A DNA stretch of 15,040 nt from Nocardia sp. (GTDB taxonomy: Bacteria > Actinomycetota > Actinomycetes > Mycobacteriales > Mycobacteriaceae), in contig JABFXT010000110.1 in assembly GCA_013361595.1 (NCBI GenBank), positions 1-15,040 on the forward strand, written 5' to 3'. Within the stretch, counting starts at the first letter, position 1; each line of letters opens with the position of its first letter. A program made the position numbers and the translations under genes. Of this stretch, positions 6,055 through 14,022 are shown in pieces. The notes beneath the pieces were generated by a model, which was given only the letters and a program-made list of their open reading frames with translations, did no database searches and was not told where the DNA came from.

Positions 6055-6915
6055 CTACGGCTCGCCGACCTCGACGGGATTGGACGCGTCCGCGCTCCAC
6101 TGCGACCACGACCCGGGGAACAGGCTCGCCTCGCGTCCGGCCGCGGTGAGCGCGGCGACGGCGATCGCCGCCGTCACTCCGGAACCGCAGTAGACGGCCA
6201 GCGGTTCCGGCGGACTCGCGCCCGATCCCGGATAGCGGGCGAGCACTTCTTCGTCCGGGCGGAACCGGCCCGATTCGTCGAGCAATGCCGTCGCCGGAAC
6301 GTTTACGGCACCCGGAATGTGCCCGGCCACGGGATCGACCGGTTCGTTCTCGCCGCGGTAGCGCTCGGGTGCGCGCGCATCGACGAGGGTGCCGTTCGCG
6401 ACGATATCGCCCAGTTCCCCGGCGGTGACGACGCTCAGCGCTCCGGCGTAGAGGTCGGGCCGGGTGACGGTGGCGTCGCCGGGAGCGGGCGTCACCTCCC
6501 CGCTGTCGAGGCTGCCACCGGACTCCCGCCAGGCCGCCAGGCCACCGTCGAGAATTCGCACATCGCGCAGGCCGGCGGCGGTGAGCACCCACCAGGCGCG
6601 CGACGAACCCGCGCGATTCCAATCGTCGTAGATCACCACCGGGACGCCGTCGCGCACACCCCACGCCCGCAGATCCCGTTGCAGCGCCGCGCCATCGGGC
6701 AGCGGATGGCGGCCGCGGCCGGTCACCGAGTGATCGGACAGCGCGCCGTCGAGGTCGACATAGACAGCGCCGGGCAGGTGGCCGGCGCGATAGTCTTCCC
6801 GGCCGTCGGGACGATCCAGCCGCCAGCGCACATCGAGTAGCGTCACGGGCGCCCCGGACGCGATCGTGTCCGCCAGTTCGCCGGTGGTGGTGAACACCTC
6901 AGCGCGAGTAGTCAT
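6055..6915 (-). CDS. sseA: 3-mercaptopyruvate/thiosulfate sulfurtransferase (two rhodanese domains)
   Basis: A 286-residue tandem rhodanese protein. The N-terminal domain (about 8-135) has LLDVRW and GHLPGAVYVDLD, with Asp98 where an active cysteine would be, as expected for the inactive half. The C-terminal domain (about 160-280) has LVDAR, GHIPGAVNVP and the active-site loop CGSGVTA with Cys243. CGSGVT is the loop form of 3-mercaptopyruvate sulfurtransferases; thiosulfate-specific enzymes usually have CRKGVT. The likely reaction is sulfur transfer from 3-mercaptopyruvate to a thiol acceptor or cyanide in the cytoplasm. The ATG at 6915 has GGAGG seven bases upstream. Assignment to the family is firm, substrate choice less so. 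It may share sulfur physiology with the operon at 9049-13395, but nothing in the sequence ties the two together. Confidence 0.9.
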   Translation of the reverse strand: MTTRAEVFTTTGELADTIASGAPVTLLDVRWRLDRPDGREDYRAGHLPGAVYVDLDGALSDHSVTGRGRHPLPDGAALQRDLRAWGVRDGVPVVIYDDWNRAGSSRAWWVLTAAGLRDVRILDGGLAAWRESGGSLDSGEVTPAPGDATVTRPDLYAGALSVVTAGELGDIVANGTLVDARAPERYRGENEPVDPVAGHIPGAVNVPATALLDESGRFRPDEEVLARYPGSGASPPEPLAVYCGSGVTAAIAVAALTAAGREASLFPGSWSQWSADASNPVEVGEP

Positions 6916-7165
6916 CGAACAGCCTCCACTCTGCCGGTCTGCCGTCACGAGTTCGCACCCGCCGGGTGGTCGGCGCGGAAGGGCCGACGACGACACCGCG
7001 GGATGCTAGCAGCGCGACGAATGGATCTCGGCCGTCGCGGCGGCGCTGTCCTGCCGCGGCGGTGCTGTCGAGATTCGAATCGTCGCGAGGCGAACTGTGG
7101 GAGGAGGTTCCGGGTTTCGCCCGCACCTCGGATTCGGGACCGACCGCCGGACAGTTCGACTGCCG
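6916..7165. other. Non-coding gap upstream of sulfurtransferase gene
   Basis: A 250-base stretch between two minus-strand genes. Apart from the ribosome binding site GGAGG just before the sulfurtransferase, I see no convincing gene, terminator or clean inverted repeat. It must hold the sulfurtransferase promoter unless transcription reads through from the gene at 7166-8167. Confidence 0.4.
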
Positions 7166-8167
7166 TCAGCGTCGACTCCCGCCGTCATGGACCCCGCCGC
7201 TGTCGTGGGCATGTCCTCGGGGCAGGATGACCCGTGCCACCAGGGCCCGGTGGTCCGCGCCGGGCAGGCCGGTCGTTTCCACTTCCACCGCGTATCCGCC
7301 GGCCACCAGAATGTGGTCGATTCCGACCAGCGGTGGCCACCGCTTATCGGTCGGGTAGGTGACCAGATGCCCCGCGCCCGCCTGCACAGCGGCGTCACCG
7401 AAACGACCGGACAGCAACGCGCGGTACTGCGCATGATCGTAGGTCGCGTTGAAATCGCCCCCGACGATCACCGGACGGTCCGTGGGCGACTGCTCGAGGA
7501 TCTCGCCCAGCCGCGACAGCTCATCGGCCCATACCCGCGTTCCGTACACCGGTGGTACGGGATGGAATGCGTACACGGTCACCGGCCCGATATCCGGGAT
7601 GGTCGCGGTGGCCGAGAGCTGGTTCAGCACGTATCCGTCGTATTCGACGGGGTCCGACAGCGGGTGGGCGCTCCAGATCCCGGTACCGGCCGCGGTTCTG
7701 CCGGGGGAGAGGTAGCGGTGGGGCAGTATCGCGTCGAGCCCGGCTCGGCCGAGCGCCTCGATCGCGGCGGGGGTGAGTTCGTCGACGGTCAGCAGCTCGA
7801 CCCGGCGAGTGCGCACCTCGTCCACCAGCGCCCGCGGATCGGCTCCGTCGAACAGGAGGTTGGCCTGCATCACCGTCACTGCCCGTCCGGTGTCCGCGGC
7901 GTCGTGGGACCGGTACAGGGGAAGCTGGGTCCAGACACCGACGGCCGCGACCAGCAGTGCCAGCACAGCACCGTTCCAGCGCCGTCCGGCGGCGAACGCG
8001 GCCGCGCCGACGAGGGCGGAACCCATCAGATACGGTGCGCCGGACGCGGCGAGAACCAGTAACCGCGCGGACGAACGGCTGAAATGCAGTCCGATCCCGG
8101 CCACTCCGGCGAGTGTCGCCGCTGCGGCGAGCATATCGGCGGCGATCCGGACCGGCTTCGAATTCAC
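7166..8167 (-). CDS. Membrane-anchored endonuclease/exonuclease/phosphatase-family protein
   Basis: A protein of about 333 residues. The N-terminal third holds three hydrophobic segments (about 8-26, 35-60 and 66-83). The rest is an EEP (DNase I-like) domain with its catalytic residues in order: Asn103 (QANLL), Glu130 (VDE), His202 (AFHPVPP), Asp238/Asn240 (GGDFNAT), Asp284-His285 (IDHILV) and Asp305-His306 (GADHRAL). It is a metal-dependent phosphodiesterase or phosphatase; the substrate (nucleic acid, lipid or inositol phosphate) is unknown. The topology would probably place the catalytic domain outside the membrane. The start is uncertain: GTG 8167 is chosen because it directly precedes the first hydrophobic segment; there is no strong ribosome binding site, and the frame is open up to 8272. 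Confidence 0.85.
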   Translation of the reverse strand: MNSKPVRIAADMLAAAATLAGVAGIGLHFSRSSARLLVLAASGAPYLMGSALVGAAAFAAGRRWNGAVLALLVAAVGVWTQLPLYRSHDAADTGRAVTVMQANLLFDGADPRALVDEVRTRRVELLTVDELTPAAIEALGRAGLDAILPHRYLSPGRTAAGTGIWSAHPLSDPVEYDGYVLNQLSATATIPDIGPVTVYAFHPVPPVYGTRVWADELSRLGEILEQSPTDRPVIVGGDFNATYDHAQYRALLSGRFGDAAVQAGAGHLVTYPTDKRWPPLVGIDHILVAGGYAVEVETTGLPGADHRALVARVILPRGHAHDSGGVHDGGSRR

Positions 8168-8382
8168 ATCCGCAAGCCAAGCACACGGGACGGCGGCGCC
8201 GATGTTCCCGCCGGCGCGGGAGTCGATCGGTCCCACCCGGCGACTGGGGCCCGGGGTCGCGACGTCCCGCAAATCGGCCGCCCCGCCGGACCTCGAAGGC
8301 GTGAAGAGCCTCGACCGTCGACCGGTTCAGCAGCGGTGGGGTGGAGTGAACGACCGGATGGAGATGGAGTGGGGCCCGGAAG

Positions 8383-8400
8383 CCGCCTGTGGTCAGGCGG
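8383..8400 (-). terminator. Hairpin at the TetR stop codon, candidate terminator
   Basis: On the minus strand CCGCCTG and CAGGCGG form a perfect 7-bp stem with a 4-base loop, and the TGA of the TetR gene at 8393-8986 lies across the end of the first arm and the loop. There is no T-run. It is placed to end the TetR transcript. The roughly 225 bases between it and the EEP gene show nothing else. Confidence 0.5.
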
Positions 8401-8986
8401 GTGGGATGAGCCCGGCGGCCAGTGCGCGGCCGAGGTGTAGCGGTTCCACCGTGTGCTCGAGTTTGGAGCCGGCCAGGGCGCCGTCGTAGATCAATTGGAT
8501 GCGGCGGGCCAGACCGGCGGCATCGGGGGCGCGGCGAGCCTCGAGCAGTTCGGTGAGTGCGTCCAGCATCCAGCGGCGGTGGGCGACCACGGGTGCGAGC
8601 GCCTCGTCCGGGAATTCCGTTGCGGCATTCGCATATTGGCAGCCACGGAAACCCCGGTCCGGGGCGGACGCGAGTGCGAGATCGAAGAAGGTGAGGATGC
8701 GGGCGGCCGGATCGGCGATCGCGGCGGTGGCCTCGTTCCAGCGGGCGCGATCGCGGTGATCCAGATGTTCCAGATAGGCGATGACCAGTGCGTCCTTGGA
8801 ACCGTAGCTGGAGTACAGACTCGCCCTCGCCACCCCGGATTCGGCCAGGATCCGGTCGATGCCGATCGCGCGGATACCGTGCCGGGCGAACAGGGTGGTC
8901 GCGGTATCGAGCAGGCGCCGCGCCGGCGCCGGTTTGCCGCGCCGCTCGGCGGATGCCGGCGCCGCGGACTCCGTTGTTGTGGCCAC
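8393..8986 (-). CDS. TetR-family regulator divergent from the sulfur-type operon
   Basis: A 197-residue TetR-type repressor. After a basic, low-complexity N-terminus the HTH is at about residues 42-61 (GIDRILAESGVARASLYSSYGSKDALV). The YSSYGSKDALV segment marks a widespread actinobacterial subgroup. The rest is a helical ligand domain with RGFRGCQYANAATEFPD in the middle; Cys in this RGC-type motif is common in the subgroup. The start is GTG at 8986; an ATG a little upstream is in another frame. An 18-bp palindrome lies 26 bases before the start and overlaps the -35 of the divergent operon, so it probably represses both itself and the operon. The ligand is unknown, possibly a sulfur compound imported by the operon. 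Confidence 0.9.
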   Translation of the reverse strand: MATTTESAAPASAERRGKPAPARRLLDTATTLFARHGIRAIGIDRILAESGVARASLYSSYGSKDALVIAYLEHLDHRDRARWNEATAAIADPAARILTFFDLALASAPDRGFRGCQYANAATEFPDEALAPVVAHRRWMLDALTELLEARRAPDAAGLARRIQLIYDGALAGSKLEHTVEPLHLGRALAAGLIPPA

Positions 8987-9011: not shown

Positions 9012-9029
9012 ATAGACAGATCGGTCTAT
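9012..9029. promoter_or_regulatory. 18-bp palindrome, TetR operator over the -35 element
   Basis: ATAGAC (9012-9017) and GTCTAT (9024-9029) are perfect inverted arms. The centre AGATCG is symmetric around GATC except for one base pair. Size and symmetry suit a TetR dimer, and the site sits between the TetR gene and the operon, overlapping the proposed -35 at 9013-9018. Binding by the neighbouring TetR is inferred. Confidence 0.7.
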
Positions 9030-9048
9030 CTATGGATAGTCTGTATCC
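9013..9048 (+). promoter_or_regulatory. Candidate promoter for a leaderless operon transcript
   Basis: TAGACA (9013-9018) is a plausible -35. After 18 bases, TAGTCT (9037-9042) fits the actinobacterial -10 pattern TAnnnT. Six bases follow before the GTG of the leader peptide at 9049, so transcription could start at the GTG itself, giving a leaderless message. A second inverted repeat GGATA-N5-TATCC (9034-9048) covers the -10 to start region. Confidence 0.55.
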
Positions 9049-9129
9049 GTGATCCGCAGCAATCTGACTCGCCGCCTGCACGTGGACCTCGTGCGCGTGG
9101 CCAATGCTGCCTGTCGTCACCGGCGCTGA
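9049..9129 (+). CDS. Sulfur-responsive type leader peptide (26 aa)
   Basis: A 26-codon open frame starting GTG and ending TGA. The peptide reads MIRSNLTRRLHVDL followed by VRVANAACRHRR. The pattern LTRRLHVDLxRVxxxxCR matches the short leader peptides seen before sulfate, cysteine and organosulfur genes in streptomycetes, nocardiae and mycobacteria. There is a single Cys codon (TGT, 9112-9114) near the end. In mycobacteria, cysteine-rich leaderless small frames have been shown to work as cysteine-responsive attenuators; extending this mechanism to a peptide with one Cys is inference. There is no ribosome binding site, in agreement with the leaderless start. It lies about 100 bases before the DUF4242 gene and is the strongest clue that the operon serves sulfur acquisition. 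Confidence 0.75.
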   Translation: MIRSNLTRRLHVDLVRVANAACRHRR

Positions 9130-9171
9130 TTCGGCTCCCCGCACCGCGTAGCGATCCGTTCGCGTATTCCC

Positions 9172-9189
9172 CGGCCGCCGTGGCGGCCG
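9172..9189 (+). promoter_or_regulatory. Strong GC hairpin between leader peptide and first operon gene
   Basis: CGGCCGCC (9172-9179) and GGCGGCCG (9182-9189) are perfect 8-bp inverted arms with a very small loop. The hairpin lies 42 bases after the leader-peptide stop and 40 bases before the ATG of the DUF4242 gene. There is no T-run, so it could be a factor-assisted attenuator or part of an alternative fold that responds to ribosome position on the leader peptide. No clear competing antiterminator was found by eye. Confidence 0.45.
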
Positions 9190-9229
9190 CGCACTCTCGC
9201 AGATCCCACCCCTTGGAAGGCGGCTGCCC

Positions 9230-9751
9230 ATGTCCCTTTACCTGTACGAACTCGTGCCCGCCGGCGCTGCCGCCCGCACCATCGAGGAATTCGGCGCGCG
9301 AGCCGAAAAAGAAGGCGGAGTGCTGATCGAAGCCCAGGTCACCACCGGTGCGACCCGGGTCTTCGCGATCACCGAATTCGCGGACTGTCGCGCTCCCGCG
9401 CTCCCGGCACCGGATCTGCTCGCCGAGACCGTCGACGGCCCGCACGAAGTCCGTCTGGTGGGCGCCGATCTGGCCGCGATCAAAGCCGCCCGGCCGGGTG
9501 CCGGGTATCTCGTGGAATGGGATATCCCCGCCGAGATCGATATGGACACCTATCTGGCCCGCAAGAAGGCCAACGCTCCCAAATACGCCGATGTACCCGA
9601 GGTGAGCTTCCTGCGCACCTATGTTCGCGAGGACACGGCCAAATGCCTGTGTTTCTACGACGCACCCGACGAGGCCGCGGTGCGCCGTGCCCGCGACGCG
9701 GTGAACACACCCGTCGACCGGCTGCACGAACTCGCGGATCCACGGATATGA
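9230..9751 (+). CDS. DUF4242-domain protein, first structural gene of the operon
   Basis: A 173-residue soluble protein. The C-terminal half (about 93-170) is a DUF4242 domain: YLVEWDIP near its start, then SFLRTYVREDTAKCLCFYDAPDEAAVRRARDAVNTPVDRLHEL. The family includes SCO4226, a ferredoxin-fold protein reported to bind nickel. Here Cys139, Cys141 and His166 are candidate ligands. The N-terminal half (MSLYLYELV..., about 1-85) looks like a more divergent ferredoxin-like unit. The ATG at 9230 has GGAAGG about nine bases upstream. Its ATGA overlap with the flavoprotein gene means translational coupling, so it probably works with that enzyme. Its exact function is unknown. Confidence 0.85.
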   Translation: MSLYLYELVPAGAAARTIEEFGARAEKEGGVLIEAQVTTGATRVFAITEFADCRAPALPAPDLLAETVDGPHEVRLVGADLAAIKAARPGAGYLVEWDIPAEIDMDTYLARKKANAPKYADVPEVSFLRTYVREDTAKCLCFYDAPDEAAVRRARDAVNTPVDRLHELADPRI

Positions 9752-10779
9752 CCGCCACCTCTGTCTCCGGGAGCACGGTCGCCGAATTCGTCCGGGCCCG
9801 TGCCGCCGACCTCGACGCGGGCCGCACCGACACCCGTACCGATATCGCCGAGATCGGCGGCCGCGGCCTGCTCGCCGCCGGGCTCGGCGGTTCCGATATC
9901 CGCGAGATCGCCGGTGTCGTCGAGCAGGTAGCGGCCGAAAGCCTCGCGGCCGGGTTCTCGCTGTGGGCCCAGCGGATGGCGCTCGAATATATCCGGCGCG
10001 CACCGGTTCCGGTGCGCGAGCGTTATCTGGACGACCTGGCTTCCGGGCGGCAGGTCGGTGTCACCGCGATGGCGGCGGCACTCAAACATCTCGCGGGTCT
10101 GGGCGAGCTGCCACTACGCGCAGCCGAGGAGGCCGGGGACCGCGTTTCCGGACCTATCGCCTGGGCCTCAAACGTTTTCGAGGATTCGCTGATCGTATTT
10201 CCGTTCCGGGGCCGGGACGGCGACGGCCGGGTCGGGGTGGTGCGCGCCGACGCCGACGGCGTGGCCATCCGCTCGGCGCCGGAGCTGCTGGCACTGGGTG
10301 CGACGGCCTCGACCGCGTTGAGTTTCGACCGCGTCGAGGTGCGGGACGACCACTTGGTCACCGCCGAGCTACCCGCCTTCTGCGCGACGATCCGGCCGGT
10401 GTTCCTACTGTTGCAGACCGCGTTCTGCGCCGGGGTCGCCGGGACTTCGGTCCGTGAGGCGGAGGGCCGGCTGGCCGGGCTCGGCGCCCAGTTCCGGGAC
10501 GAATACGGCGCTCTCGCCGCACGGCATTCGTCGGTGCGGCAGCGTCTCCGGCAATACACCACCGACGCACCCGCGACCCCGCCCGCCGAGCTCATCCGCC
10601 TGCGCCTGGACGCGGCGCGCACCGCGGTCGACGCGACCCGCCTGGAATCCACCCTGCGCGGTGGCGCGGGCTACGCCCTGCACTGCGATACCAACCGGCG
10701 GTTCCGGGAAGCCGCCTTCCTCCCTGTTCAATCCCCTTCGGAAGGCCAATTGCGGTGGGAACTGTCGCAGTACGACTAG
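9748..10779 (+). CDS. Acyl-CoA-dehydrogenase-fold flavoprotein, putative sulfur-acquisition oxidoreductase
   Basis: A 343-residue protein with the acyl-CoA dehydrogenase/oxidase fold. Helical N-terminus, then GSDIREIAGVVEQVAAESLAAGFSLWAQ (about 48-75). Next is a middle beta domain with SGPIAWASNVFEDSLIVF (about 134-151) and the flavin-contact segment LLALGATASTALSFDRVEV (about 180-198). The helical C-terminus ends with LRGGAGYALHCDTNRRFREAAFLPVQSP. It is shorter than classical dehydrogenases (about 380-400). In sulfur-scavenging loci this fold also supplies FMNH2-dependent monooxygenases such as DszC and SfnC-type enzymes; the operon context favours such a role over fatty-acid oxidation, but no reductase is encoded nearby. 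The ATG overlaps the preceding stop (ATGA), and its end overlaps the ATPase gene by 25 bases. Confidence 0.82.
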   Translation: MTATSVSGSTVAEFVRARAADLDAGRTDTRTDIAEIGGRGLLAAGLGGSDIREIAGVVEQVAAESLAAGFSLWAQRMALEYIRRAPVPVRERYLDDLASGRQVGVTAMAAALKHLAGLGELPLRAAEEAGDRVSGPIAWASNVFEDSLIVFPFRGRDGDGRVGVVRADADGVAIRSAPELLALGATASTALSFDRVEVRDDHLVTAELPAFCATIRPVFLLLQTAFCAGVAGTSVREAEGRLAGLGAQFRDEYGALAARHSSVRQRLRQYTTDAPATPPAELIRLRLDAARTAVDATRLESTLRGGAGYALHCDTNRRFREAAFLPVQSPSEGQLRWELSQYD

Positions 10780-11486
10780 CGGGTGCCCGCAAGGTTTATC
10801 CGGGCCGCGCCGATCCGGTGCTCGACGGAGTCGATCTGCGGATCGGCGCGGGTGAGCTGCTCGTGGTGCTCGGTGCCAGCGGTAGTGGTAAATCGACCCT
10901 GCTGCGCGTGGTCGCCGGCCTGGACCGGCTCGACGGTGGCGAGATCAGCTGGGGCGAGGGGGAGACAGGAAACCCGGCCACCGGCATGGTATTCCAGCAA
11001 CCACTGCTCATGCCCTGGCTCACCGTGCGGGACAACGTCCGGTTCGGCGGCCGGTTCGCCAGGCACCGGGCCGGTTTCGACCCGGACCACGTGGACGGGC
11101 TGCTCGAGCACTTCGGCCTGGCGGGCCTCGCCGACCGCCGACCCGATCAGCTCTCCGGCGGGCAAGCGCAGCGCGTCGCGGTGATCCGGGCGGTGGCGGT
11201 GCGGCCGCGCCTGCTGCTGCTGGACGAACCGTTCAGTGCGCTGGACCCCGCGATCCGCGCCGATCTGCAGGACTGGCTGGCCGATCTGGTCCGGGAGATC
11301 GACTGCACAACAGTGCTGGTCACCCACGATATCGACGAAGCCCTCCGCCTCGGCGACCGGATCGTCCTCATCGGGTCGGGTGGAAAGGTCCGCGAGGAAT
11401 TCTGCGAGTTGGGTGGTTCCGCCGACCGGGACCGATTGCGGCAGCGCATCATCGACCGCTATCGCGATTCGGCGGTGACGCTGTGA
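10755..11486 (+). CDS. ABC importer ATPase, nitrate/sulfonate/taurine type
   Basis: A 243-residue ABC ATPase of the SsuB/TauB/NrtD group. Walker A GASGSGKST at 40-48, Q-loop in MVFQQPLLMPWLTVRDNV (about 78-95), signature LSGGQAQR at 133-140, Walker B LLLLDEP at 153-159, D-loop SALD, switch His191 in VTHDIDEA. PLLMPWLTV..NV is typical of this importer group. It powers uptake through the permease at 12634-13395. The GTG start at 10755 lies inside the end of the flavoprotein gene, with GGAAGG about nine bases upstream; no later in-frame start would leave an intact N-terminus, so the 25-base overlap is probably real. Its stop overlaps the next start (GTGA). Confidence 0.92.
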   Translation: MGTVAVRLAGARKVYPGRADPVLDGVDLRIGAGELLVVLGASGSGKSTLLRVVAGLDRLDGGEISWGEGETGNPATGMVFQQPLLMPWLTVRDNVRFGGRFARHRAGFDPDHVDGLLEHFGLAGLADRRPDQLSGGQAQRVAVIRAVAVRPRLLLLDEPFSALDPAIRADLQDWLADLVREIDCTTVLVTHDIDEALRLGDRIVLIGSGGKVREEFCELGGSADRDRLRQRIIDRYRDSAVTL

Positions 11487-12637
11487 GCGCTCTGCCGATA
11501 TCGCGGCGTGGATTGCTCTGTGGCTGCGCCGGACTCGTCGCGGCGGGCGGTATCGCAGGCTTGGCCGACCTCGGGCGGGCCGCGGCCCAGCGATCCGGTG
11601 CCGGTGGTGAGCGGCTCCGGATCGGCTATCTACCGATCACCGATGCCGCGCCGCTGCTCGTCGCCGACCGCGGCGCCGCGGCGGTGAGTCTCGCCGAACC
11701 GGTGCTGTTCCGCAGCTGGGCGGCGCTGGCCGAAGCCTTCCTCACCCGGCAGGTCGATATCGTGCACCTGCTCATGCCGATGGCCGTGCAGCTGCGGTTC
11801 GGACTCGGAGCTCCGGCGCGGGTGCTGGGGTGGAACCACACCAACGGCTCCGCATTGACGGTCGCACCCGGGATCACCGAGCTCGGGCAGCTGGCCGGGA
11901 CCCAGGTCGCGATCCCGTTCTGGTGGTCCATTCACAACATCGTGATCCAGCAGTTGCTGCGCGCGAACGGATTACGCCCGGTGATCCGCGGGACCGCCTC
12001 ACGTTCGGCGGGCACGGTGGAACTGGTCGTGATGAGCCCGTCGGATATGGTCCCGGCGCTGGCCAACGGGTCGATCAGCGCTTTCACCGTGGCCGACCCG
12101 TTCAATGCCGTCGCCGAACTGCGCGGGATCGGCCGAATCCACCGGTTCCTCGGCGACCTGTGGCGCGATCACGCCTGCTGCGCGGTGGTCGTGCACCAGG
12201 ACCTGCTGGACCGGCGTCCCGCCGCCGCGCAGGCGGTCGCGGACGCGGTCGTGGCAGCGCAGCTGCGCATCGGTGCCGACCGTCCGGCCGCCGCGAAACA
12301 GCTCGCGGGCGCCTACCTGCCGCAGCCGCTACCGGCCATCACCAAGGCACTGACCTACCCCGGTACGCTCCCGGTCCGCCATCCGGACTGGCAACCGCAG
12401 CGGATCGGATTCCAGCCCTTCCCCTTTCCGAGTTTCACCACCGCGCTGGTGGCAGCCATGCACGACACCGTCGTCGACGGCGATACGCGTTTCCTCGCCG
12501 CCCTGGACCCCGACCGGGTGCACGACGCACTGGTCGACGACCGCTTCGTTCGCGCCGCGCTCGCACACGCGGGCGGTCCGGCCGCCTTCGGCCTGCCCGA
12601 CCGGCTCATCCGCATCGAGGAGATCGACCCATCGTGA
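11483..12637 (+). CDS. ABC importer substrate-binding protein, Tat-exported, NrtA/SsuA-like
   Basis: A 384-residue periplasmic-type binding protein. The N-terminus carries a twin-arginine signal (ISRRGLL, Arg8-Arg9), a hydrophobic stretch (about 11-30) and a likely signal-peptidase site after the Ala-rich segment near residue 35. Two cysteines (13 and 15) sit too early to be a convincing lipobox. The mature protein begins LRIGYLPITDAAPLLVA, the characteristic start of NrtA/CmpA/SsuA-type proteins. WWSIHNIVIQQLLRANGL and VADPFNAVAELRGIGRIHRFLGDLWRDHACCAVVV continue the fold. The substrate is probably a small organic or inorganic sulfur anion, judged from the leader peptide and not from binding residues. 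GTG start overlaps the ATPase stop, and its own stop overlaps the permease start (GTGA). Confidence 0.88.
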   Translation: MSALPISRRGLLCGCAGLVAAGGIAGLADLGRAAAQRSGAGGERLRIGYLPITDAAPLLVADRGAAAVSLAEPVLFRSWAALAEAFLTRQVDIVHLLMPMAVQLRFGLGAPARVLGWNHTNGSALTVAPGITELGQLAGTQVAIPFWWSIHNIVIQQLLRANGLRPVIRGTASRSAGTVELVVMSPSDMVPALANGSISAFTVADPFNAVAELRGIGRIHRFLGDLWRDHACCAVVVHQDLLDRRPAAAQAVADAVVAAQLRIGADRPAAAKQLAGAYLPQPLPAITKALTYPGTLPVRHPDWQPQRIGFQPFPFPSFTTALVAAMHDTVVDGDTRFLAALDPDRVHDALVDDRFVRAALAHAGGPAAFGLPDRLIRIEEIDPS

Positions 12638-13395
12638 ACACCGTCGACACCCGGCCCCGGACCGCCGCCCGGCTGCCCCGCCTCGCCGCCGTCGCCGCCG
12701 CCCTGCTGGTGTGGTGGATACTCACCGACCTGGTAGCCGGGCCCGAATCGCTGCTGCGCGAATTCGGGCCACAGCACGTACCCGGCGCGGCCGGGGAACT
12801 GTTCGACCGAGGTGTACTGGTCCCGGATATCGCGGTCAGTATGTGGCGCCTGCTGGTGGGGTCGGTGATCGCGATCACCGTCGGTATCCCGCTCGGACTG
12901 CTGCTCGGGCTGCACGCCGCCACCGAACAGGCGGTGGCCCCGGTGGTGCAGTTCCTGCGGATGATCTCGCCCCTGTCCTGGGCGCCGATCGCGGTCGCGC
13001 TGTTCGGTATCGGGAATCAGCCGGTGATCTTCCTCGTCGCGGCGGCATCGGTCTGGCCTATCGTGCTGAACACGGCGGCGGGGGTCCGGGCGATCGATCC
13101 CGGACTGCTGCTGGTCGCGCGTTCGTTCGGGGCATCCCGGCGGGAGCAGCTCTCGGCGGTGATCCTGCCCGCGATTCGCGCCCAGGTGCAGACGGGTATC
13201 CGGATCGGTCTGGGTATCGCCTGGGTGGTTCTGGTTCCGGCGGAGATGCTGGGCGTGCGTTCCGGCCTCGGTTATCAGATCCTCAATGCGCGCGACCAGC
13301 TCGCCTACGACCAGGTGGTGGCGGTGATCGTGGTGATCGGAGTCATCGGCTACGCCCTGGACACGCTGTCCCGGGTGATCCTCGACCGCCGCTGA
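12634..13395 (+). CDS. ABC importer permease, SsuC/TauC-like
   Basis: A 253-residue inner-membrane permease with about six hydrophobic segments (about 16-36, 68-94, 113-126, 129-150, 188-206 and 226-245). The cytoplasmic EAA loop is at about 161-181 (LVARSFGASRREQLSAVILPA), the docking site for the ATPase. SPLSWAPIAVALFGIG and GLRAGLGY-like GVRSGLGYQILNARDQ are usual for SsuC/TauC permeases. It completes the importer with the two preceding genes. GTG start overlaps the previous stop; GAGGAG lies about 11 bases upstream. It is the last gene of the operon, 33 bases before the convergent TetR gene; no strong terminator is visible in that gap. Confidence 0.92.
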   Translation: MNTVDTRPRTAARLPRLAAVAAALLVWWILTDLVAGPESLLREFGPQHVPGAAGELFDRGVLVPDIAVSMWRLLVGSVIAITVGIPLGLLLGLHAATEQAVAPVVQFLRMISPLSWAPIAVALFGIGNQPVIFLVAAASVWPIVLNTAAGVRAIDPGLLLVARSFGASRREQLSAVILPAIRAQVQTGIRIGLGIAWVVLVPAEMLGVRSGLGYQILNARDQLAYDQVVAVIVVIGVIGYALDTLSRVILDRR

Positions 13396-13428: not shown

Positions 13429-14022
13429 TCAGTCGGCGAAACCGGTCCCGGCGCGGCGGATCGCGGCGCGCATCGCGGTGGCGCGTTGGGCCGGTGGTGT
13501 GGAGACCGCGGCGGCGACGGCCGCGCCCAGGCAGGCACCGAGATGGGTGCCCAGCACCGGCCACAGCTCCGGGTCGGTGAACCGTTCCCGAAGGGATTCG
13601 AGCAAGCTGGTGTACGCGGATTGCAACCGCAGCATGAGGGACCCGGGGATGCCGCGCGCACTTCGCACGACATCGGCCCGCACATCGGCGAGTTCGTCGG
13701 AGCGATCGGTCGCCGTATCGAAGGCGTCGACCAGTGCCAGCGCCGCGGCCTGTACCGAATCCCACGGAGTCGCACCGGGTCCCAGCCGGTCGAGGGTGCC
13801 CACCGCGGACTGTATATGCGCTTCGAGGTGGTGGAAGAGGACATCTTCCTTGGCGGGGAAGTAGAGGAAGAAGGTCCGCCGGGAGACACCGGCCGCGTTC
13901 GCGATATCGGTGGCCGAGGTCGCGGTGAAACCGCGGTCGAGGAACAGGTCCGTCGCGGCCCTGATGATGGCCGCCCGGGTTTCCGCGCGCTTCCGGTCCC
14001 GCAGCCCTGTTGTCTCGCCCAT
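13429..14022 (-). CDS. TetR-family regulator of the divergent SDR gene
   Basis: A 197-residue TetR-type repressor. The basic N-terminus (LRDRKRAETRAAIIRAA) leads to the HTH at about residues 35-56 (TSATDIANAAGVSRRTFFLYFPAKED), a form common in actinobacterial TetRs. The C-terminal helical part has ELADVRADVVRSARGIPGSLMLRLQSAY and a small, Ala-rich last helix. The ATG at 14022 is the natural start. It is divergent from the short-chain dehydrogenase gene, and two tandem palindromes between them are the probable binding sites. The ligand is unknown, possibly a substrate of the SDR. Confidence 0.9.
   Translation of the reverse strand: MGETTGLRDRKRAETRAAIIRAATDLFLDRGFTATSATDIANAAGVSRRTFFLYFPAKEDVLFHHLEAHIQSAVGTLDRLGPGATPWDSVQAAALALVDAFDTATDRSDELADVRADVVRSARGIPGSLMLRLQSAYTSLLESLRERFTDPELWPVLGTHLGACLGAAVAAAVSTPPAQRATAMRAAIRRAGTGFAD

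Follow-up and report, generated by a model that had tools for sequence, protein, structure and literature searches.

In mycobacteria, sulfur genes can be preceded by leaderless short open reading frames (ORFs) that contain cysteine and are cysteine-responsive, and the monooxygenases DszC/TdsC, MsuC and SfnB/SfnC, which act in a sulfur context with the acyl-CoA dehydrogenase (ACAD) fold, lack the catalytic base of the dehydrogenases. Genes of the Synechococcus elongatus plasmid pANL have reportedly been linked to sulfur availability and CysR, in the title of a 1995 study by Nicholson and Laudenbach. In Staphylococcus aureus the operon SA0165-SA0169 (NWMN_0115-0119) belongs to the CymR regulon, and its five genes are sulfide-repressed 16.9-, 34.0-, 11.5-, 13.0- and 13.7-fold, according to the available part of the source (PMC5480029). 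Here we analyze a related gene cluster in a 15,040-nt stretch of Nocardia sp. DNA (the window; contig 38 of a 5.18-Mb assembly that is 78% complete), whose flavoprotein and DUF4242 protein have their nearest named relatives in Nocardia. At positions 9049-13395 a leader ORF is followed by five genes, of which the first two encode a DUF4242 protein and an ACAD-fold protein and the next three an ATP-binding cassette (ABC) importer, in the order ATPase, binding protein, permease. With a probability of roughly 0.68, this operon takes up a small, probably anionic, sulfur compound and frees the sulfur to make cysteine when preferred sources are short. The features are as follows.

8393..8986, minus strand: TetR-family regulator, divergent, 197 amino acids (ORF; TetR_N 44.1 bits on the part 8491-8986)
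9012..9033, no strand: putative TetR-type palindromic operator (2 mismatches against the consensus read from the related locus L054)
9037..9042, plus strand: predicted -10 element TAGTCT (TANNNT box before the leader start)
9049..9129, plus strand: leader peptide, 26 amino acids, one Cys (NF042934, 32.5 bits, cut-off 27)
9230..9751, plus strand: DUF4242 (SCO4226-like) protein, 173 amino acids, with a conserved KCLC (CxC) motif (PF14026, 81.5 against 28.5 bits, residues 93-167)
9748..10779, plus strand: ACAD-fold flavoprotein without the catalytic glutamates, 343 amino acids (model and fold search; no Pfam match)
10755..11486, plus strand: ABC importer ATPase (PF00005, 101.6 bits)
11483..12637, plus strand: NMT1_2 binding protein with a twin-arginine (RR) signal, judged by eye, and an HxCC motif formed by H230, C232 and C233 (PF13379, 137.3 bits)
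12634..13395, plus strand: ABC importer permease (PF00528, 80.9 bits)

The leader and the five genes behind it had been proposed by an initial annotation made from the letters and ORFs of the stretch, and profiles, model and fold search recovered all of them in place. The coupling of the five genes that it described is likewise borne out by overlapping junctions: ATGA stands at 9748 and GTGA at 11483 and 12634, while at 10755 the genes overlap by 25 nt. The divergent TetR gene (8393-8986) and the palindromic operator (9012-9033) were not mentioned there.

At the level of sequence comparison, a sulfur-scavenging role is supported because the leader family and the cyanobacterial and staphylococcal relatives of the operon are all tied to sulfur. 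The window leader passes the 'putative leader peptide' profile NF042934. Of the 81 family genomes that we searched, 68 gave matches at E 0.001 and 44 were above the cut-off; the survey also took in a second, weaker leader of the window's own genome, and left out one locus in which the leader pattern was not found (L113) and three belonging to the operon itself (L088, L103 and L108). We scanned 31 downstream proteins from 27 loci, taken as the longest ORFs starting at most 420 nt from the leader, with a second ORF retained for four loci and a match threshold of 1e-8. Twelve matches were to DUF4395, four to rhodanese and three to nitrite/sulfite reductase domains, and there were also three to family-5 binding proteins, two to SDF symporters, two to the alkanesulfonate-monooxygenase type, one to flavin reductase and one to acyl-CoA dehydrogenase type 2. 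The reductase, monooxygenase and rhodanese genes we take to be sulfur genes, whereas the link to sulfur is ambiguous for the symporters and the family-5 binding proteins. DUF4395 has no assigned function; inspection of L101, L118 and L119 shows a rhodanese-type ORF in that stretch as well. The weaker leader of the same genome (L089, contig 532), which at 18.2 bits falls below the cut-off, precedes a nitrite/sulfite-reductase-type gene. Because nitrite/sulfite reductase, sulfurtransferase and sulfonate-monooxygenase genes follow related leaders, 'sulfur type', the label given by the initial annotation, is a fair one for this family. The likeness to the mycobacterial leader ORFs is that of a leaderless short Cys-bearing ORF before sulfur genes, whereas the window leader has one Cys instead of a Cys run and a TetR operator overlies its promoter. 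Among 19 Nocardia and Rhodococcus sequences the leader stretch R-L-H-V-D-L-V-R is conserved at many nucleotides. Many synonymous positions are also kept there, beyond what a Cys-counting leader needs.

The relatives in other phyla came from a plasmid search with the DUF4242 protein, which returned 10 records. Those of Synechococcus elongatus and Thermomicrobium roseum have the identical order of DUF4242, ACAD, ATPase, binding-protein and permease genes, all in one direction. On pANL the cassette (the srp set) lies downstream of cysK and a gamma-glutamyltransferase-family gene, and its products share 48% (binding protein), 49% (permease) and 30% (flavoprotein) identity with those of the window; unlike the window, it has no TetR gene annotated next to it. 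We infer that srpL and srpM are the binding-protein and permease genes of this cassette. In S. aureus the DUF4242 gene is SA0165 according to the accessible portion of PMC8158120, and, as in the window, genes for an ATPase, a binding protein and a permease are given after it.

The operon also recurs as a unit among actinobacteria. A search with the flavoprotein matched 56 of 251 family genomes, at 57 places. Apart from the window itself, the set is complete in 29 loci (L032-L060), divergent TetR gene included, and 25 of these show the leader pattern; 14 others (L061-L074) show neither an adjacent TetR match nor a leader pattern, and two of the 14 also lack a permease match. That leaves 13 places: 12 paralogues (35-42% identity) in different settings and one partial copy that ends at a contig edge (L079) and was left out of the paralogue count. 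Within the genus the distribution is patchy, the operon being present in 4 of the 21 listed genomes of this genus, the window's own included. A wider search gave 80 named actinobacterial loci, the best 80 of 234, some of whose genus labels we assigned ourselves (L147, for example, as Prescottella). Beside the flavoprotein, DUF4242 is found in 79 of these, the ATPase in 77, the binding protein in 76 and the permease in 73; some of the missing genes reflect contig ends. Since the flavoprotein and all four partners occur together in 73 of the 80, the gene set goes beyond chance association. Around these loci no further ORF (at least 100 amino acids, at least 35% identity, in different genera) was common to more than three genera, and the conserved set contains neither a luciferase-like monooxygenase (LLM) nor a flavin reductase. 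On the Pseudonocardia plasmid pBCI1-2 (L204) the cassette lies near a second ABC importer, an NtaA/DmoA-type monooxygenase, another acyl-CoA dehydrogenase and a rhodanese.

According to the initial annotation the importer belongs to a group that handles sulfonates, taurine and similar anions, an assignment that the scores do not support in this form. The binding protein scores 62.3 bits against the SsuA sulfonate cut-off of 163.5 (TIGR01728) and 19.7 bits against the taurine cut-off of 304.25 (TIGR01729), and its PDB matches are led by 3un6, presumably the binding protein of the S. aureus operon, followed by NrtA. W102, Q155, H196, G240 and K269 of NrtA, which we take to be its nitrate ligands, align to W79, S123, H151, A204 and C233. 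The likeness to NrtA and CmpA is therefore that of the NMT1_2 family, with W102 and H196 kept, whereas K269, Q155 and G240 are replaced and the window protein has HxCC. Across 78 aligned relatives, conservation of H230, C232 and C233 is 97% or higher, and none of the three residues varies in the 17 cassettes compared, which are of the three kinds described below; four of the same 17 differ at S123, W147 and A204. In 3un6 the CC pair is present and the histidine is absent. As a control we took 30 NMT1_2 loci from relatives. Of these, 20 could be aligned at all, and in 10 the alignment spans both cysteines: HxCC was found in all four proteins adjoining the flavoprotein, the window's own included, against none of the six others. 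It is also absent from NrtA and from a neighbouring binding protein outside the cassette. Because HxCC tracks the flavoprotein and the nitrate and sulfonate tests fail, the importer looks like a separate class, by these tests neither of nitrate nor of sulfonate type. Judged by its RR signal, the binding protein is probably exported by the twin-arginine translocation pathway.

Public records label the flavoprotein an acyl-CoA dehydrogenase. Its ACAD fold is evident from the model and the fold search, which lists TdsC, but Pfam gave no match, the ACAD families included. In a sequence alignment of 22 flavoproteins the E376-type site is S, T or A in all 22, never glutamate, and the E254-type site is E in only three; these we take, by mapping through the alignment, to be the catalytic glutamate positions of acyl-CoA dehydrogenases. 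What it shares with DszC/TdsC, MsuC and SfnB/SfnC is the fold, the lack of the dehydrogenase base and the sulfur context, whereas sequence similarity is weak (TdsC at E 7.8e-5, the methanesulfinate monooxygenase 6u76 at E 0.01) and the score for the SfnB equivalog profile (TIGR04022) is 18.5 bits against a cut-off of 430.9. The DUF4242 protein has a CxC motif that is at least 97% conserved in 83 aligned sequences; a sequence search of the PDB returned no usable match for it.

The initial annotation had also presented the DUF4242 protein and the flavoprotein as an enzyme pair that it could not place in a described pathway. The literature searched by DUF4242, alone or with ABC transporter and acyl-CoA dehydrogenase, yielded no description of it, the OsmC and decarboxylase variants introduced here lying outside that search, but the pair is not exclusive. 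Plasmid searches with flavoproteins matched 12, 58 and 87 records, and we read 13 regions among the matches listed, picked for variety and annotation; one of them, from Burkholderia, had no annotation and was not used, and the partner count omits L211 for lack of annotation. In these non-DUF4242 cassettes another small protein adjoins the same flavoprotein and HxCC importer. It is a carboxymuconolactone decarboxylase (AhpD-like) in Deinococcus, Agrobacterium, Variovorax, Roseomonas, Bartonella and Moraxella, and an OsmC protein in Corynebacterium, Marinobacter, Acetobacter, Pseudosulfitobacter, Methylocystis and a rhodobacterium. DUF4242 is thus one of three partner kinds seen with this flavoprotein family. 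The kinds are mixed on the binding-protein and flavoprotein trees, in which several nodes are weak: Synechococcus (DUF4242) groups with the decarboxylase cassettes in the former and apart from the actinobacterial DUF4242 cassettes in the latter, and Moraxella (decarboxylase) stands among the OsmC cassettes in both. All six decarboxylase-type proteins carry CxxC, and the OsmC proteins have one shared cysteine. The partner may perform a thiol step for the flavoprotein, with thiol partners being interchangeable. Two entries of the plasmid collection (H29, H30), each about 2.17 Mb long and labelled Neisseria gonorrhoeae, look chromosome-like in size, an artefact of the collection.

The neighbours of the other cassettes give a hint of the substrate. 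A cyanase gene lies inside the Marinobacter and Acetobacter (OsmC) cassettes and within about 0.6 kb of five of the 12 family paralogues (L078, L080, L081, L082 and L084; two confirmed by Pfam), whose flavoproteins are about 38-41% identical and some of which also stand beside OsmC and an NMT1_2 importer. Two other OsmC cassettes contain a sulfurtransferase, the remaining two neither gene, and in Pseudonocardia a rhodanese gene lies about 2 kb downstream of the cassette. Neither cyanase nor sulfurtransferase was seen in the six decarboxylase-type and three DUF4242-type plasmid cassettes read. Of the 251 family genomes, 44 carry the DUF4242 cassette and 207 do not; cyanase is present in 22 of the former and 66 of the latter (Fisher p 0.025, uncorrected for kinship). 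Cyanase as a general companion was set aside: this association is weak, and none of the DUF4242 cassettes examined contains the gene. Where they do occur, the cyanase neighbours would be explained by cyanate left over once sulfur has been removed from thiocyanate, which as a small linear anion is also suited to an NrtA-like pocket. We therefore raise, tentatively and at odds clearly below even, a family of thiocyanate-scavenging cassettes spread across phyla, in which the HxCC binding protein takes SCN-, and the flavoprotein with an exchangeable Cys partner (DUF4242, AhpD-like or OsmC) removes the sulfur, leaving cyanate for cyanase where that is encoded. An ordinary sulfonate or sulfinate is as likely a substrate; a small sulfur anion such as thiocyanate fits as an organosulfur compound does.

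Expression of the operon may be controlled at two tiers, by TetR repression and by the Cys-containing leader ORF. In 58 of the 80 named loci a TetR orthologue is found upstream in divergent orientation, and a 22-bp palindrome like ATAGACAGACCGGTCTGTCTAT lies upstream of the cassette, also where the leader pattern is missing; at no more than five mismatches it is present in 53 of the 80, and in 26 of the 46 without the leader pattern. In the leader loci (n = 35, window included), searched over 80 nt ahead of the leader start, the operator begins 35-39 nt before that start at no more than seven mismatches in 34, the remaining locus having nine. A TANNNT box stands 6-8 nt upstream of the leader start in 33 of the 35, against 1 of 495 other start codons. 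Because the leader start codon was picked with this box in view, the operator spacing is the more independent support. We read the arrangement as a TetR-blocked promoter whose transcript would start at the leader's own GTG, giving a leaderless mRNA.

In the mechanism that we propose, the divergent TetR protein would keep the promoter blocked as long as no inducer is available, and the Cys-containing leader ORF, at the very start of its mRNA, would allow full operon expression only when cysteine is scarce. The binding protein would then capture the sulfur compound, permease and ATPase would import it, and the flavoprotein would attack the sulfur, as a monooxygenase or oxidase and not as a dehydrogenase. 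The CxC of the DUF4242 protein would make it the thiol partner, reducing an intermediate or accepting sulfur, a place that AhpD-like or OsmC proteins may fill in other phyla.

Several observations weigh against this reading. The initial annotation had looked to conservation of the gene order together with the leader, and although the partner genes recur as described, the leader pattern was found in just 34 of the 80 named loci and not in 46 (one match, in L187, was judged false and dropped). Its bearers are Nocardia, Rhodococcus, Prescottella, Tomitella, Saccharopolyspora, Streptomyces, Pseudonocardia, Amycolatopsis, one of two Gordonia and an unclassified metagenome-assembled genome; it was not found in the mycobacterial, Dietzia, Kocuria, Rothia and Arsenicicoccus loci. 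The RNA between leader and gene folds no better than shuffles (z 0.27). Rfam gave no match at gathering scores, and the stretch from the leader stop to the DUF4242 start, ribosome-binding site excepted, is mostly not conserved in the 19 sequences; an attenuator structure is accordingly not claimed. The operon has no flavin reductase gene. Classical OsmC peroxidases have two cysteines and the OsmC partners lack the second, so a thiol role shared by all partners is a guess. Two Kocuria loci (L185 and L191) have DUF4242 and flavoprotein with no importer match although the sequence is present, and the enzyme pair may therefore also work without a detectable adjacent importer. The match to S. aureus is partial, since a formate dehydrogenase is what the fifth gene is printed to encode, whereas the ACAD gene of the CymR regulon, SA2080, is elsewhere, in the part of the source available. 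Finally, while no locus tied to another nutrient was seen in the gene neighbourhoods, the accessible part of a 2026 paper (PMC13125312) describes srpL/srpM as of TauA/TauC type and files them under nitrate uptake by COG labels.

How do other explanations fare against the same evidence? The strongest is a narrower form of sulfur scavenging, in which the substrate is a short-chain sulfonate or sulfinate, the flavoprotein is MsuC/SfnC/DszC-like and DUF4242 is an accessory. We regard it as a serious candidate, though with odds of little better than one in three: the flavoprotein's weak similarities to SfnB, TdsC and 6u76, TdsC in the fold list and a Pseudonocardia copy amid other sulfur-type genes speak for it, whereas the binding protein scores far too low for the SsuA and taurine profiles, neither NrtA nor the neighbouring non-cassette binding protein has HxCC, the conserved set lacks an LLM monooxygenase and a flavin reductase, and the cyanase neighbours are left unexplained. 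That the operon detoxifies, with TetR sensing an electrophilic sulfur or nitrogen compound that the flavoprotein and its thiol partner destroy, sulfur supply being secondary, would fit the greater frequency of the TetR gene (58/80) and of the operator (53/80) relative to the leader (34/80), and OsmC and AhpD-like proteins belong to families of peroxide or thiol chemistry. But a binding-protein-dependent importer brings its compound in, and the links through the leader, pANL and CymR speak for a role in sulfur nutrition, which makes this improbable.

Two further readings follow from names. The label acyl-CoA dehydrogenase in public records would make this a fatty-acid operon beside an unrelated transporter, which we consider the least probable of all, given the glutamate sites of the 22 flavoproteins and the failure to match any Pfam ACAD family. 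Scarcely more probable is service to nickel or another metal. PF14026 takes its name from the nickel-binding protein SCO4226, whose Ni-1 ligands are His76, Asp43 and Ser46, but the accessible part of that paper itself describes the binding as low-affinity and surface-exposed (PMC4186839); moreover, the importer matches NMT1_2 with no metal-transporter family seen among its profile matches, and the leader family speaks for sulfur. On these grounds, and on the nitrate-ligand and taurine cut-off results above, we rejected or downgraded the readings that involve nickel, nitrate, acyl-CoA or taurine.

Sulfur scavenging by import remains the preferred reading, and judged from these comparisons what appears new within the known kind of sulfur-regulated importer operons is the exchange of partners, the HxCC class and the two-tier control. 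It gives DUF4242, for which the literature found under that name includes one study of a member, a nickel-binding protein, a testable role, and it joins sulfur-regulated gene sets of actinobacteria, cyanobacteria and staphylococci that are labelled nitrate, taurine or sulfonate transporters, with HxCC in the binding protein as a diagnostic motif for re-annotating such importers. If thiocyanate were the substrate, the cassettes would be a bacterial route to thiocyanate sulfur to our knowledge without precedent, and DUF4242 would gain a function, that of a thiol partner for which members of two unrelated protein families can stand in.

Some genes of the window lie outside the operon. A rhodanese-type sulfurtransferase gene with two matched stretches (6055-6996, minus strand) lies 2 kb upstream of it and, among L032-L087, is found in place in L032 only. 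The same locus has the only in-place match to a second TetR-family gene (13429-14022, minus strand), which is convergent with the operon. Between the rhodanese and the divergent TetR gene lies a gene for an endonuclease/exonuclease/phosphatase-family protein (7166-8272, minus strand).

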